A DNA stretch of 36,609 bases, from positions 1 through 36,609 of the forward strand of contig NZ_JXCA02000002.1 in assembly GCF_000828085.3 (NCBI RefSeq). The letters are read 5' to 3'. Shown here piece by piece: positions 1 through 6,341 of this stretch. The position numbers were made by a program, and so were the translations under genes. A model generated the notes under the pieces. The model did no database searches. It saw only the letters and a list, made by a program, of their open reading frames with translations, and was not told where the DNA came from. The stretch comes from Scytonema tolypothrichoides VB-61278 (GTDB lineage: Bacteria > Cyanobacteriota > Cyanobacteriia > Cyanobacteriales > Nostocaceae). Position 1 is the first letter of the stretch, and each line of letters opens with the position of its first letter.

Positions 1-2
1 TA

Positions 3-1778
3 CAGTTACCAACAGCATTTTTTCTTCAGTTGTTCGACAGTGGAGCTATTAAAATTCATGACGGAGTTACAGACGCAACAATAAATGAAACTGTACGTAA
101 TTTAATGGATACCGCTTCTCCTGCTTCTTTAAAAGAAGCAAACCGAAAATTTAATATAGTACAAGCATATTTTCAACGTCATACAGATATCTATAAAGAC
201 ATTAACGCTCGTACTTTACGTCGATGGGTGCAACAGTTCCGTGAAGCAGAAGCAAGCTATAGTTGTGGTTATGTTGGTTTGCTACCACGTACACATCAGC
301 AAGGAAATCGTCAACAAAAAGCACCAACTGACTCAAGTGAATTACTAGATAAATTTATTAGAGAGCATTTTGAGACACCAAGACAAGCGACCGCCGCTTC
401 GGTCTATCGGGCATATGTCAAAGAATGTAGCGCATTAAACATACAACCCCTTAGTAACCGCACCTTCTACCAACGTCTAAAAAAGCGCCCAACCCATGAG
501 CAGACTTTAAAGCGTCAAGGAGCAAAAGCCGCATATGCAACAGAGCCGTTTGTCTGGGAACTAGCAAAACATACACGTCCTCACGGAAACCGTCCTCACG
601 AGATAGTACATATCGACCATACCGAACTTGATATTGAATTACGCTCACTTGCTACAGGCAGATTATTAGGACGACCTTGGCTAACATTACTAACTGATGC
701 CTATTCCAGACGAATATTAGCAGTTTATCTGACGTTCGATGCACCTTCTTACAGGTCATGCATGATGGGGCTACGTATTTTAGTCCAGCGCTTTGGTCGT
801 TTTCCCTCAACACTCGTAGTAGATGGAGGCAAAGAATTTCACAGCATATACTTTGACACCTTACTTGCACGCTACCACTGCACCAAGAAAACACGTCCTG
901 GTGGCAAACCCCGCTTTGGGTCAGTAATTGAACGATTATTTGGTACGACGAATACTGAGTTGATATTTAACCTTCTAGGCAATACCCAAGCAAGTAAACA
1001 GCCTCGCCAACTCACTAAAACTGTTGACCCAAAACAGTTAGCTGTTTGGAATCTGGGAGATTTATACACTTACTTTACCCAATGGGCTTACTCTATTTAC
1101 GACGACAATCACCACGACTCATTAGGTGCGTCTCCATACGTTGTTTATCACGAAGGGCTGTCAAGAGCTGGTGAACGCTTACACCGCTCGATACCTTATA
1201 ACGAGGATTTCCTCATGGCAACACGTCCTTCTACCCCCAAAGGTAAGGCCAAAGTTCAGCCAGGACATGGAATTAAAGTCAATTATCTTTACTACTGGAG
1301 TGATGCTTTCCGCAATCCAACTGTAGAAAAAACTGATGTTCCAGTGCGTTACGACCCTTTTGATATGGGAGTTGCTTACGCCTATGTTGAGGGACGCTGG
1401 GTGAGATGCATCTCTCAGTATTACAGTACTTTTGTTGGACGCACCGAAAAAGAAGTGTTGTTAGCCGCACAGGAAATTAGACACTCGAACAAACGTAGCG
1501 CAACTTCGACAAACTTGAACGCTAAACGTTTAGCTGACTTCATTGCCAATGCCCAAGAACATGAAGCCATACTGTTGCAAAGATTACGTGATTTGGAAAG
1601 TATTGCTGTGATTGAAAACTTCTCTGGACTTAGTTTAGCTTCACCACAATCAAATCAAGTTAGCCAAACGGAGGTACCACCGCAGACTACTCAAGAGCGA
1701 AGATTTGATTCAAGGTCGTCTCAAAACCCCTCACCGTTGGATGTAACGCAACTGCCAATATTAGAGGAATACCGCTAA
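3..1778 (+). CDS. tnsB: Tn7-like transposase, TnsB/TniA type (5' end cut off by window edge)
   Basis: DDE transposase that would join transposon ends to target DNA together with a TnsC-type ATPase. The frame is open to the left edge, so the gene starts upstream; the first in-window start would be TTG at 30 without a convincing Shine-Dalgarno. Numbered from that TTG, residues 60-70 resemble an HTH end, and an RNase H-like integrase core carries HIDHTELD (Asp196), VVDGGKEF (Asp265) and VIERLFG (Glu301), a D-D-35-E arrangement. A beta-barrel Mu-transposase-C-like region follows (about 400-470) and a polar tail. The fold is seen from motifs; the TnsB assignment follows from the adjacent TnsC. No stop or frameshift interrupts the visible 582 residues. 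It overlaps the next gene by one base (TAATG), so the two are probably translated together. Confidence 0.9.
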   Translation, partial: QLPTAFFLQLFDSGAIKIHDGVTDATINETVRNLMDTASPASLKEANRKFNIVQAYFQRHTDIYKDINARTLRRWVQQFREAEASYSCGYVGLLPRTHQQGNRQQKAPTDSSELLDKFIREHFETPRQATAASVYRAYVKECSALNIQPLSNRTFYQRLKKRPTHEQTLKRQGAKAAYATEPFVWELAKHTRPHGNRPHEIVHIDHTELDIELRSLATGRLLGRPWLTLLTDAYSRRILAVYLTFDAPSYRSCMMGLRILVQRFGRFPSTLVVDGGKEFHSIYFDTLLARYHCTKKTRPGGKPRFGSVIERLFGTTNTELIFNLLGNTQASKQPRQLTKTVDPKQLAVWNLGDLYTYFTQWAYSIYDDNHHDSLGASPYVVYHEGLSRAGERLHRSIPYNEDFLMATRPSTPKGKAKVQPGHGIKVNYLYYWSDAFRNPTVEKTDVPVRYDPFDMGVAYAYVEGRWVRCISQYYSTFVGRTEKEVLLAAQEIRHSNKRSATSTNLNAKRLADFIANAQEHEAILLQRLRDLESIAVIENFSGLSLASPQSNQVSQTEVPPQTTQERRFDSRSSQNPSPLDVTQLPILEEYR

Positions 1779-3235
1779 TGTCCAAAATTGACAATGCTCA
1801 ATTATTGACGCAATTCAAGCAGTACGCTGTCAATCATCCACAACTGGCAAAAGTTGATCTGCATTTGATGCGTGCAATTCGAGAACCTGCGGGGTTTGCT
1901 CATGTACTGGTCTATGGGCCAAGCGGTGTGGGTAAGACGACCATGATACGACAAATCGCCAAACGGTTAAATGAGAACGAAACTACAGATGTAGCACCCA
2001 ATGATTCTGTCAACCGCAATGGTCATACACCTCAATTGCCCCTATTACTGATAGAAACACGACCACCTGACGCTGGAGTTTTTAATCGAACTGACTATTA
2101 CCGCACTGCGCTTAAGCTTTTGGACGAGCCATTCTATGAACGTCGAATGCTGATAGACATTGACACAGAGCAAACATGGGAGAAGAAAGGGCGAGGACGT
2201 AGTGGCAAAACAGCACAGTTTAATGATTCTCCAGAATTGCGCCTAGCACTCGAAGAGGCAATGACTAAACGTGGTGTGCGAGCGGTTATCCTTGATGAAG
2301 CACAACATTTAATGAAAATTGGTACTGGCGCAAGTGCAGGCAAGCTTTTAGACCAGTTGGACTGGATTAAATCCATCACGAATGTTACGGGTGTGTTACA
2401 CATCTTGATTGGTACTTACGAACTTTTAAATTTCCGGAATTTATGTGGTCAAGCATCCCGCCGCGGTCTGGATATCCACTTTCCGCGCTACTTGTACCAA
2501 AACGAACAAGACCGTCTGGATTTTCAAGCCGCGTTACTGGCACTCCTCAAGCAAGTACCTCTCAATACTAATATTCCCGAATTAATGCAGCGTTGGCTTT
2601 ATTTCTATGAACATTCTATTGGTTGCGTTGGAGTACTAAAAGACTGGCTCATCCGAACTGTGGCGGCGGCATTACATGATGGGAACGACACGTTGACCTT
2701 AAAACAATTACACGAACATACCTTAACATTAGCCCAATGCGAACGTATGGCTCTGGATGCTACCGAGGGTGAGCAAAAACTTAGTTACATGGAGAGCCGC
2801 CGCGAACACTTATGGCATTTACTACAAATAGGAATGGGTTCAACGGATGTCCCGACTAGTGCAGTTGATCATGAAACTCCACTCCGAAGCGAAAAAGCAA
2901 CTTCACCTCAAACAGAGCTAGCACCTAAAACAAAGCGCACTCGAAAAAAACCAAACGCACCTACACCACAAGAATTCACGACCACAACACCCCCACAGAT
3001 CCCCATAGAGCCAGCCCCAAAGAAAAAGCAGACTCGCAAGAAAACTACATCTACTGCAACACTTGAAATTACCGAAACGCCGCTTAGTAATTCCAGTACT
3101 GACAAAAATACGATAACCCGAAACACACAAGAGCAAACAGATTCCAGCACCAAGAAAAAGTCGGGCACACGTGTCGGACAACGCAAACCCAAGCGAGATG
3201 CTGTTGGGGATGAGTCACAGTCGGGAGCTACATAA
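1778..3235 (+). CDS. tnsC: Tn7-like transposition AAA+ ATPase, TnsC/TniB type, with basic C-terminal tail
   Basis: AAA+ ATPase of the family that links target selection to the TnsB transposase. Walker A GPSGVGKT is at residues 47-54, Walker B ILDEAQ at 171-176, a sensor-1-like stretch LIGTYEL near 210-216 and RRG at 228-230. The ATPase and helical lid end around residue 370. Beyond this lies a roughly 115-residue low-complexity tail rich in Lys, Thr, Pro and Ser with recurring basic clusters (KTKRTRKK, PKKKQTRKK, TKKKSGTR, QRKPKR). At 485 aa it is much longer than compact TnsC/TniB proteins of roughly 280-350 aa. The start ATG overlaps the transposase stop. No TniQ/TnsD gene follows, which is unusual for a complete element: targeting genes are either lost, on the unseen left side, or supplied elsewhere. 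Confidence 0.9.
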   Translation: MSKIDNAQLLTQFKQYAVNHPQLAKVDLHLMRAIREPAGFAHVLVYGPSGVGKTTMIRQIAKRLNENETTDVAPNDSVNRNGHTPQLPLLLIETRPPDAGVFNRTDYYRTALKLLDEPFYERRMLIDIDTEQTWEKKGRGRSGKTAQFNDSPELRLALEEAMTKRGVRAVILDEAQHLMKIGTGASAGKLLDQLDWIKSITNVTGVLHILIGTYELLNFRNLCGQASRRGLDIHFPRYLYQNEQDRLDFQAALLALLKQVPLNTNIPELMQRWLYFYEHSIGCVGVLKDWLIRTVAAALHDGNDTLTLKQLHEHTLTLAQCERMALDATEGEQKLSYMESRREHLWHLLQIGMGSTDVPTSAVDHETPLRSEKATSPQTELAPKTKRTRKKPNAPTPQEFTTTTPPQIPIEPAPKKKQTRKKTTSTATLEITETPLSNSSTDKNTITRNTQEQTDSSTKKKSGTRVGQRKPKRDAVGDESQSGAT

Positions 3236-3934
3236 GCCGCTGTGTCTGAGAAACTATAGGTTATTTGGTGCTTTAAGAATTGCCAAAAATATTGATGGAC
3301 AGAATGCTTGCACAGCAAGGATTACAGCCAAGCGCGTCAGTTTCTGCACGGATGCTCATTTGACCCCAGCCCCTAGAGATGCCATCTTTCTGAAGGGGTA
3401 CAAAGCTTCAAAATGCATTGCATGAAAAACCACGCTTACTTGAGGGGGTGGGATTCAGACGCGGCAGTTCTTCTCTGGCGTCAAGCCTTGCCTCCTCACC
3501 TAAAAGCATCAATCCAGAGAAGGGCTGACCGACGGCTGAAAGCGAAGCGTTTCCACCCCCTCGCCGCCGCCCAACCTGGATGTAACCGCTACCTACCCTT
3601 TTGACTTTGTGCGTTTTTATAACTCACGGCTAAACTACTGAAGCATATCTTGTCTTAAGTGCTTTTGAAGTATTTCGTGACCGTTTGGTCGAATTATGAT
3701 TCAAATCACAGACAACGACTCTTCTATCTCTATTTTCAGCACTCCCGACATTTTCACTTTTCCTCATCGTCATCCCTCCATCTATTTATAGCATTCTTTT
3801 TTCTATTTGATATAAGTTAACTCCAGAAACTATTCATTCTGTGACTGGATGGCAGTTTATTCTAGAGGCACTATCTGTAGCAAACATTTAGGTAATCGAT
3901 ATAACAAGTCGATGAAGCGGACAGTTGGAAGGTC
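3236..3934. other. Gene-poor stretch after tnsC
   Basis: No convincing gene is seen in about 700 bases. Short open frames at 3171-3425 and 3413-3604 have no recognisable motif or ribosome binding site, and the second lies on top of a strong inverted-repeat structure (3442-3562, listed separately). From about 3605 the DNA is AT-rich. A TniQ or Cas gene would be expected here in a complete Tn7-like operon, and none is visible on either strand. Confidence 0.6.
3442..3562. ncRNA. Candidate structured RNA: nested GC-rich hairpin
   Basis: Four consecutive stems nest inside one another: GAGGGGGTGG (3442-3451) with CCACCCCCTC (3553-3562); TTCAG (3454-3458) with CTGAA (3536-3540); CGGCAG (3462-3467) with CTGACCG (3525-3531, one bulged A); and CTTCTCTGG (3470-3478) with CCAGAGAAG (3514-3522). 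That gives 30 base pairs around a 35-nt apical loop, in DNA clearly richer in GC than its flanks. The pairing is read directly; that it is transcribed is inference. It could also be a MITE-like or REP-like palindrome or a transposon-end structure. Strand is unknown because the outer helix is symmetric. Confidence 0.35.
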
Positions 3935-4150
3935 TTGGTGGTGATGCCAAGGTTATCTGCCGCCGCTTATCTTGGTCGCGATCACGACTCTATCCGCAAG
4001 CAGATGAGAGCGGATAACAAAGCGCTGGAACTGCTGATGAGGGGCGATCGCATTTTGTTCAAGTCAGTTGCAGCCGCTCAACTAGGTGTTATGCCGCAAA
4101 TCCTGAGTGGGGATGTAGTTGAAAAGTTATTTGTTTATGCTCAGACTTAA
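3935..4150 (+). CDS. Doubtful small ORF, 71 aa, hypothetical
   Basis: I do not recognise this product. The frame begins GTG-GTG-ATG, so ATG at 3944 is the likelier start, giving about 68 aa. The visible sequence is helical and mixed-charge (RDHDSIRKQMRADNKALELL) with two Ala-rich stretches and a GCGATCGC site inside. A weak helix-turn-helix resemblance (SVAAAQLGV) exists but is not diagnostic. It sits alone between the tnsC debris and the repeat array, so it may be a remnant of a longer gene. Confidence 0.25.
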   Translation: MVVMPRLSAAAYLGRDHDSIRKQMRADNKALELLMRGDRILFKSVAAAQLGVMPQILSGDVVEKLFVYAQT

Positions 4151-4276
4151 GTTGCTTTAAGTTTGGCATAGGATGGTAATCTGAGGGATTATGCAAGTCT
4201 AAAGAGACTTTCAACTCAACTAGGCGCAATCGCCCCAACTGTTCGGTAGATAGATAAAGCCAGTCCAACCTCTACC

Positions 4277-4389
4277 TTTAGGATGTTATGCAGAAACTTT
4301 CGACCTATCCACCCAAATGAGCGTATGATGCGGAAAGATTCGGCTTAAACAGCAGCTTTAGAATATTATACAGAAACTTTCTGTCTATC
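4277..4389. repeat. Imperfect repeats with 40-bp spacing, possible transposon-end binding sites
   Basis: A 33-nt segment starting TTTAGGATGTTATGC at 4277 recurs at 4357 (27 of 33 positions equal by eye). A weaker copy of its core lies midway: ATGCAGAAACTTTCGACC at 4288, ATGCGGAAAGATTCGGCT at 4328, ATACAGAAACTTTCTGTC at 4368, each exactly 40 bases apart. A further AGAGACTTTCAACTC-like stretch is at 4203. Regularly spaced short repeats are what TnsB-type transposases bind at Tn7-like ends, and tnsB/tnsC are on the same side, but no defined TGT/ACA terminus could be fixed. Confidence 0.4.
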
Positions 4390-4394
4390 AATTG

Positions 4395-4898
4395 TTAAGC
4401 CCTACTGCGTATCCTTCACCACACCACTTATGTCAGATCAACTTACAGCAGAAATCGAACTGCTCCGCGCGGGCTACGCGGCCTTTAACGCGCGGGACAT
4501 TGACGCCGCCCTCGCCCTCATGACTCCGGACGTGACCTGGCCGAGAGCATTCAAAGGCGGTTTTGTCCGTGGACATGAACAAGTCCGCGCTTACTGGACC
4601 GAGCAATGGAGCGAGATCAACGGGCACGTGGAGCCGGTGACTTTTCACCCGGAGGAGTCCGGACGTATCTTGGTCGAAGTGCATCAGGTCGTGCGCGACC
4701 TGGCTGGAGCCGTTCTTGCTGATGAGCACGTCGGTCATCGTTTCACCATTACGCAGGGCTTGATTCAAGCCATGGAAGTCTGTCCGCTTCCATCGTCCGG
4801 ACACACAGCCTAACACGGCGCGAACGCTTCAGGGCAGCCACCCCGGTTCCGTTCTTCACACCAACAGGCGTTCTGAAGCGTCGCTCAGCTTTGATCCG
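4395..4898 (+). mobile_element. Candidate single integron gene cassette
   Basis: The unit runs from the GTT of GTTAAGC (4394-4400, fits GTTRRRY) to the matching GTT of GTTAGCT (4898-4904), the two points at which an integron integrase would cut. It holds one ORF that begins 30 bases after the left boundary and whose TAA stop lies inside the R'' box of the attC-like site, the standard compact layout of cassettes. Its GC content is far above that of both flanks. No intI gene or second cassette is visible in this window, so it would be a lone cassette, either a leftover or an out-of-place integration. Confidence 0.55.
4430..4813 (+). CDS. NTF2/SnoaL-like small protein (integron cassette gene)
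   Basis: 127-aa protein of the nuclear-transport-factor-2/SnoaL cone-barrel fold. Visible family features: an N-terminal helix ELLRAGYAAFNARDIDAAL, the ALMTPDVTWP turn, GHEQVRAYWTEQW, and C-terminal strands ending with HRFTITQGLIQAMEV. Family members include enzymes, small-ligand binders and proteins of unknown role; no catalytic residue can be assigned here. ATG 4430 fits the family N-terminus and lies just after the cassette boundary. GC is about 58-60% and codons favour C/G at third positions, unlike the neighbours, which points to transfer. A same-length ORF on the opposite strand is a composition shadow. NTF2-like proteins are a known recurrent class among environmental integron cassettes. 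Confidence 0.8.
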   Translation: MSDQLTAEIELLRAGYAAFNARDIDAALALMTPDVTWPRAFKGGFVRGHEQVRAYWTEQWSEINGHVEPVTFHPEESGRILVEVHQVVRDLAGAVLADEHVGHRFTITQGLIQAMEVCPLPSSGHTA

Positions 4899-4904
4899 TT
4901 AGCT
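4808..4904 (+). other. attC-like integron recombination site (97 bp)
   Basis: R''-like box GCCTAAC (4808-4814) matches RYYYAAC exactly; R'-like box GTTAGCT (4898-4904) matches GTTRRRY except at one position. Between them, ACGCTTCAG (4824-4832) pairs perfectly with CTGAAGCGT (4873-4881), giving the imperfect inverted symmetry expected of an attC hairpin, with a 40-nt central segment. Length is within the known attC range. The spacing between outer and inner boxes differs on the two arms (9 and 16 nt), which lowers confidence. The gene's stop codon lies within the R'' box. Confidence 0.55.
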
Positions 4905-5039
4905 CACCTTAAGAAGCAATCTCCAGATTTTGATGAACGTCGTAAATCCATTCCAAGCAAGATAGGGGAGCAACCAACGAAACGCCATTTTTGACGCATG
5001 CCATCAGTATTAAACCTTGCCGTTATATAATCCCTACCC
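4905..5039. other. Short intergenic stretch between cassette and tnpB unit
   Basis: No gene, repeat or clear hairpin is recognised. Base composition falls back to that of the host directly after the attC-like R' box. Confidence 0.5.
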
Positions 5040-5165
5040 AAAGCTACCCATAATTAGACTTTTCTATGACAGACTACTTGTACTAATCAGGTTGCTTTAA
5101 GTTTCGATTACTTCTTGCTTCATTCTGGAGAAGTCGGCTTCTACCAGTCCACAAGCTAACCTCGC
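5040..5165 (-). ncRNA. Candidate omega (reRNA) guide RNA at the 3' end of tnpB
   Basis: In IS200/IS605 elements the guide RNA used by TnpB spans the tnpB 3' end and the right end of the element. Here the downstream flank contains a compact hairpin CTGG-AGAAG / CTTCT-A-CCAG around a TCGG loop (5125-5147, plus-strand reading; one bulged A), then a purine-rich AAGCAAGAAG stretch on the minus strand. The location is inferred from family architecture; the hairpin is directly visible. The scaffold probably begins within the tnpB coding sequence and the guide would continue past the element end near 5035. Confidence 0.35.
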
Positions 5166-6341
5166 CTAACTGGCGATTTTTGACACGCCACATGCTTCAA
5201 GCCGGGAGACCCGGACGCCAGGTACCAAGTGAGGGAGACCCTCATCAAGTACTGGCTCTCCAACGCAGTGGCTCAAATTGATTGCAGCGTTTAAATCACG
5301 ATCCATTGTAAAACCACAATCTTCGCACTCAAACACTCTCTCATTCAAGGTGAGTGTTTCTTTTTTAATTCCGCAGTTGGAACAAGTCTTAGAACTGGGA
5401 AACCATCTATCAGCTACCACAAGTTTTGAACCGTACAGTTCGCACTTGTAGGTCAACTGGCGACGAAACTCGAAGAAAGACATATCCGCAATGGCTTTAG
5501 CTAGCTTATGATTAGCCAACATTCCGGATACATTCAGGTCTTCAATCACTATTGTGCCGTGGTTTTTGGCTAATAGTGTTGTAAGCTTATGGAGTGTATC
5601 TTTGCGGATATTAGCAATCTTCCTATGAAGTCTAGCAATCTGTAACTGTGATTTTTTCCAGTTAGCTGAACCAATAATTTTATGCCGATTTAACCATTGC
5701 ATTCTGGATAACTTGGTTGAGTATTTTTTGTAAGACTTGGCACCTTCTACCACTTCTCCAGTCGATAGCGTAGCCAAAGTCTTAACACCCAAATCAACGC
5801 CTACAACGTCTGTATGTTGAGATTCTTGAGTCTCTACCTCAAACCGAAAACTAATAAACCATCTGTCCGCTTGACGACTGATTGCGACTGATTTCGGCTT
5901 GATTTGAGGTAGACGCTCATAAGTCTTGAGAACACCTATCACAGGTACTTGAATTTTGTTGTTTCCTAAAATTTTGACTGTACCTTCAAGAGTGAAGGAA
6001 TCGCACCTACCTTTTTTCTTGAATTTGGGAACGCCAGCAGTTTTATTAAAGCAGCGCTTCCATGATTCGCGCAGTGCCATTAGCGCTTGTTGTGGAGTGG
6101 ACTTACTAACTTCGTAATACCATTCGTGTTCAGATTTCACCAGTGCCACCAACCATTTGTGCAAGTCAATGGCACTAGGGAACTTAATTTTAGAATTAGG
6201 ATTAGCTTTGTTATGGTCAAGAATTTGTTTAGTTAAAGCTAATCCCCAGTTCCAAGCATGACGAGCTACACCACAATGTTTTCCAAATGCTGTGCGCTGT
6301 TGGTTATTCAGTTTCAACTCAGTCTTGAAACCTAAGAGCAT
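5166..6341 (-). CDS. tnpB: TnpB, RNA-guided nuclease of IS200/IS605 family
   Basis: 391-aa TnpB (OrfB), the RuvC-type RNA-guided nuclease ancestral to Cas12. The N-terminal OrfB HTH region (FGKHCGVARHAWNWGL, 19-34) is followed by the beta-barrel/wedge region and a RuvC core with all three acidic residues in place: Asp183 (GVDLGVKTLA), Glu267 (VIEDLNVSG) and Asp349 (DRDLNAAIN). The zinc finger is complete: Cys320, Cys323, Cys339, Cys342. The protein ends with the usual short tail, so it appears full-length and potentially active. ATG 6341 lies inside the end of the small upstream ORF, so translation is probably coupled. On the family's known biology it would favour element retention by cutting empty donor sites. 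No companion tnpA is seen. Confidence 0.93.
   Translation of the reverse strand: MLLGFKTELKLNNQQRTAFGKHCGVARHAWNWGLALTKQILDHNKANPNSKIKFPSAIDLHKWLVALVKSEHEWYYEVSKSTPQQALMALRESWKRCFNKTAGVPKFKKKGRCDSFTLEGTVKILGNNKIQVPVIGVLKTYERLPQIKPKSVAISRQADRWFISFRFEVETQESQHTDVVGVDLGVKTLATLSTGEVVEGAKSYKKYSTKLSRMQWLNRHKIIGSANWKKSQLQIARLHRKIANIRKDTLHKLTTLLAKNHGTIVIEDLNVSGMLANHKLAKAIADMSFFEFRRQLTYKCELYGSKLVVADRWFPSSKTCSNCGIKKETLTLNERVFECEDCGFTMDRDLNAAINLSHCVGEPVLDEGLPHLVPGVRVSRLEACGVSKIAS

Follow-up and report, generated by a model that had tools for sequence, protein, structure and literature searches.

The unit at positions 4395-4898 of the window, the 36,609-nt stretch of Scytonema tolypothrichoides VB-61278 DNA analysed here, is very probably a stranded integron gene cassette, a relic inserted by an integrase that is now absent (Table 1). 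An integron gene cassette had been proposed at this place in an earlier note made from the sequence, and the proposal is supported by the sharp boundaries of the unit, by another cassette sitting at the same junctions in a relative and by homologues of its gene located beside attC-model matches. The gene is indeed bounded by GTTAAGC and GTTAGCT, its stop codon TAA falls within the RYYYAAC box GCCTAAC, and the cassette is G+C-rich (52-56 % vs ~43 % in the surroundings).

Table 1. Features of the cassette and its neighbourhood in the window
Feature	Position	Strand	Remarks
TnsB/TnsC block	1..3711	+	identical to C11:9126-12836
Joined IS end fragments	3711..3905	.	IS of ~1.1 kb where complete; many near-identical copies in the genome
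Second attC, cyanobacterial integron type, truncated	3905..3978	+	R1 48.8 bits, E 9.8e-10; positions 7-80 of 86; both outer boxes lost
Possible further degenerate attC (weak)	4012..4094	+	R1 17.6 bits, E 0.026
Left flank, common to relatives	4190..4393	+	repeated ACAGAAA/TTTCTGT-type palindromes; putative promoter/operator-like role
5' boundary GTTAAGC (GTTRRRY)	4394..4400	+	from sequence and boundary comparison; putative R' box in the circular form of the cassette
Integrated gene cassette	4395..4898	+	504 bp, from after the G of GTTAAGC to the G of GTTAGCT
SnoaL/NTF2-like gene	4430..4813	+	127 aa; PF12680 (SnoaL_2) E 2e-11; PDB 1tuh E 0.0044
Cassette attC, L'' arm damaged (6 nt missing)	4808..4904	+	R'' 4808-4814 (GCCTAAC), R' 4898-4904
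3' boundary GTTAGCT	4898..4904	+	R' of the cassette attC; crossover between G and TTAGCT
Right flank, 3'-terminal remnant of a TspO/MBR-like gene	4899..5013	-	intact gene in L235 (PF03073 E 6e-19)
TnpB (IS605 OrfB) element after the right flank	5020..6341	-	profile match; repeat copies start at 5020

The ends of the unit are clear from the comparison with the copy in Cyanomargarita (L030), which can be aligned over 4394-4903 with 92.8 % identity. Counted per 20-base step near the cassette ends, 16-20 bases are identical inside and 1-9 outside, and the similarity falls to chance level at both GTT boxes. GTT crossover points at both ends, as in integron cassettes, were found in the comparisons with L030 and L109. 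None of 2000 sequences obtained by dinucleotide shuffling of 4394-4905 contained a RYYYAAC/GTTR pair with an inner stem like that of the window site; when the whole window was shuffled 60 times and both strands were scanned, one such combination was seen.

The left flank is present, whole or partly, in L029, L031, L032, L109 and L115, and it is preceded by an SDR gene in the four loci examined (L029, L032, L109 and L115; PF00106 for L109). A genome matched to Scytonema hyalinum has the SnoaL cassette between the same flanks on contig C133. On its contig C70 (L109), the same flanks enclose another insert, which encodes a regulator of the HxlR type (PF01638) plus a zinc-type dehydrogenase (PF00107) and is closed by its own attC (38.5 bits, E 4.6e-6) at the same junction. 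In a further genome (L234), the left flank is followed by the same second insert. Relatives with conserved flanks extending past both GTT boxes, which the earlier note had named as evidence against a cassette, do exist, as L029, L031, L032 and L115 carry the cassette plus both flanks as one block, but L030 and L109 contradict this objection. We read the four blocks as the same insertion as in the window. Because at least four relatives share the block, it may be that a larger segment was inherited, or acquired by ordinary transfer, and brought the window copy with it. The search of 217 family genomes brought up no clean empty site and additional genomes carrying a single flank or both, part of which were inspected. 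A match across the joined flanks in G658 was rejected as an empty site, since to the left of the junction it covers only a few bases. Operator-like palindromes of the ACAGAAA/TTTCTGT type, seen at 4283-4394 of the window, also occur in the other cyanobacterial loci L036, L041 and L119.

Regarding the attC-like site, the type of the R''/R' boxes and L''/L' arms is backed by covariation in relatives, but the window's own copy is damaged and not recognised by our model. In the helix common to eight sites of this type, 8 pairs changed on both sides, a value reached in none of 500 shuffles; six of the eight sites are near-identical and the contrast comes mostly from L033 and L070. Compared with seven other aligned copies, the window site is 6 nt short in the L'' arm. 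It was scored with R1, a covariance model built from 13 other attC sites, which were found by a script in the surroundings of cyanobacterial integrases and show changes of both bases in 11 of 18 pairs (0 of 500 shuffles). The window site obtained 0.5 bits, i.e. it is unrecognised, and Rfam gave no attC match for it. On its face, this result of the covariance check, which the earlier note had proposed, would refute the cassette; the likely reason for the miss is the 6-nt gap in the L'' arm. Moreover, R1 is a poor fit to this attC type even when undamaged, as undamaged relatives scored weakly (L032 16.3 bits, E 0.85; L030 13.8 bits, E 3.3) or had no match at the position of the cassette attC (L029, L031 and L115). 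Folding of the window site as DNA was only mildly more favourable than that of its shuffled versions (z between -1.5 and -2.0). In the comparison with relatives' sites, z was -3.4 for L029, -2.5 for L032 and -1.8 for the window site, and the L033 and L109 sites, folded as single DNA strands, were no better than shuffles (z -0.6 and -0.3). The window copy is probably no longer a recombination substrate and would be immobile.

Homologues of the gene were also found beside other attC sites, as expected for an integron cassette. At E up to 10, R1 gave 46 plus-strand matches over 80 homologue loci, spread over 24 of them, and the other 56 loci had no attC-model match. Of these matches, 22 lie directly beside the SnoaL gene (2.4 expected), in 17 of the 80 loci; the match is directly upstream of the gene in 10 loci and directly downstream in 12. 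With the threshold lowered to E 0.01, 12 of 30 matches were beside the gene, in 10 of the 80 loci (hand count). The locus count excludes the L109 row and three minus-strand rows, each overlapping a plus-strand match, and all independent matches are on the same strand as the gene. No integron integrase was present within up to 4 kb on each side of the 80 homologues. A RYYYAAC box at the gene end was found in 38 of 81 loci vs 107 of 3658 random stretches. Its absence in the other 43 loci, like the failure of R1 and Rfam to recognise the window site, is what would be expected of an ordinary chromosomal gene with GTT boxes and a stem formed by chance; this explanation seems extremely improbable and is already contradicted by the boundary comparison and by the adjacency of homologues and attC-model matches, and it does not account for the other cassette at the same site or for the 0 of 2000 shuffles.

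The SnoaL gene has a dN/dS of 0.09-0.22 against four distant copies; the values against near copies (0.6-1.4) are too noisy for reading. In the gene tree, the window copy grouped with copies of Nostocaceae, Scytonemataceae and Cyanomargaritaceae (support 99/86). The tree, which rests on few columns, requires 5 transitions between Cyanobacteria and other phyla, two of them forced by well-supported branches, with MAG binning as a caveat for these transitions. Homologues were found in 26 plasmid records, in 20 cases with less than 60 % identity, and the plasmid viewed in detail was a conjugative Tolypothrix plasmid. In viral_contigs, five stretches matched a pattern used to look for virus-borne copies, and none was confirmed. 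In one relative (L113, 4180-4991), the SnoaL gene is present in two tandem copies ~70 bases apart.

The cassette had been called lone, which is slightly wrong, as another decayed attC precedes it. The IS fragments abut this second attC, an arrangement that suggests either a deletion or a faulty assembly, and the assembly may be faulty at this contig end. The truncated site and the weak one following it could also be what is left of a former cassette array of the lineage, from which the integrase and the other cassettes were deleted, and not the neighbours of a single off-target insertion. This possibility, which we consider doubtful but worth keeping in mind, is in line with weak attC-model matches just upstream of the gene in L030 (19.5 bits, E 0.15) and L070 (19.9 bits, E 0.12); however, in L029, L032, L109 and L115, which share the left flank, this place is taken by the SDR gene and the operator-like region, and no attC-model match was found to the left of the cassette in their examined surroundings.

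The partnership with a Tn7-like transposon, also raised in the earlier note, found no support. The TnsB/TnsC block stops at 3711, with the joined IS fragments next to it, and no link between the cassette and the Tn7-like genes is visible. It is very unlikely that the cassette is cargo of the neighbouring Tn7-like element in the manner of the integron-Tn7 partnership: the TnsC-like ORF does end only ~1.2 kb upstream, but IS fragments intervene, the C11 copy of the block runs on into different DNA, and the homology common to relatives starts at 4190 or later. On C11 (L218), the complete TnsB-like ORF has 854 aa, and its N-terminal part weakly resembles TnsA (NF033179, E 3.4e-5, under the cut-off), which suggests a TnsA-TnsB fusion.

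The earlier observation that no integrase is visible holds for the window's contig (C2), where TIGR02249 (integron integrase) had no match at E up to 0.001, so the cassette does not adjoin intI as in a complete integron. In the whole genome, one integron integrase exceeds the cut-off, but it is located on a contaminant-like contig, C14 (480.8 bits), together with 16 attC-model matches at E up to 10. The first 19 kb of C14 (L009, L193 and L194) have a GC content of 66 %, vs 41 % in C2:36000-50000, and the contig contains N runs and repeated junctions that resemble sequencing-adapter sequence. C14 looks like a contaminant contig, which is a judgement and not a proof, and on these features its integrase was not taken to be the host's own. 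Outside C14, attC matches above 48 bits were found on C2 (in the window), C3:533399, C6:294194 and C7:525653. Contigs C3, C6 and C7 have no integrase over the cut-off, and their sites adjoin genes of the RidA, T5orf172 and LysR types, respectively; one further match (37.0 bits) is on C15. An integrase over the cut-off was found in 23 of 386 genomes of the phylum and in 6 of the 58 genomes in the set of relatives, which includes the genome itself. Matches of the attC model at E up to 0.01 were present in 45 of the 58 genomes, two of which (G020 and G025) had supplied R1 training sites; all six integrase-bearing genomes are among the 45, and so are 39 of the 52 relatives without an integrase over the cut-off.

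For the stranded cassette, we propose that an integrase now gone from the genome, either foreign or lost by an ancestor, acted in trans. A circular SnoaL cassette would have been inserted, by recombination of its folded attC, at a GTT triplet that has a promoter-like region on one side and the 3' end of the TspO-like gene on the other, and the upstream region may drive expression of the SnoaL gene. Afterwards, the copy would have lost 6 nt of its attC and thereby probably its mobility.

Several known systems are similar. The SnoaL-like protein Bal32a, which we take to be PDB 1tuh, is alike in belonging to a related fold family (phmmer E 0.0044 to 1tuh) and in coming from an integron cassette, but the sequence similarity is weak and it is a different protein. 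In attG insertions, reportedly described by Loot et al. 2024, cassettes enter the chromosome at GTT triplets outside attI. The proposed insertion in the window resembles them in that a chromosomal GTT triplet, and not attI, holds the cassette, and differs in that a relative holds another cassette at the same site. Published work treats attG, citing Loot et al. 2024 (PMC12901181), and GTT secondary sites (PMC10127599), and the title of the Bal32a paper stands among the references of PMC3548836. Other papers refer to integrases in Cyanobacteria and Chloroflexi (PMC2426708), to an existing Cyanobacteria attC model (PMC8352920) and to exogenous integrases that can excise or capture CALIN cassettes (PMC9668308). 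The CALIN or single-attC locus of IntegronFinder, as outlined in PMC9024848, is alike in having a gene and attC without a nearby integrase; the window unit differs by its damaged attC, so that it is likely missed by covariance models. The same paper gives a two-attC threshold and states that single attC sites may be real. Among the matches listed in our search of mostly open-access literature, no title dealt with this cassette family or with dispersed cyanobacterial cassettes.

A broader idea, speculative and on balance unlikely, is that cyanobacterial chromosomes serve as a diffuse, platform-less integron, in which visiting integrases would bring in and move cassettes that insert singly at GTT sites behind regulated promoters. 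The flank 4190-4393/4899, occupied by SnoaL in some genomes and by HxlR-oxidoreductase in others, would then be a reused landing site in place of attI. Among the 58 genomes, attC-bearing ones (45, E up to 0.01) far outnumber integrase-bearing ones (6). If these sites are stranded cassettes, single or damaged attC sites would be what tools with a two-site threshold miss, and cyanobacterial integron gene flow would be larger than integrase surveys suggest.
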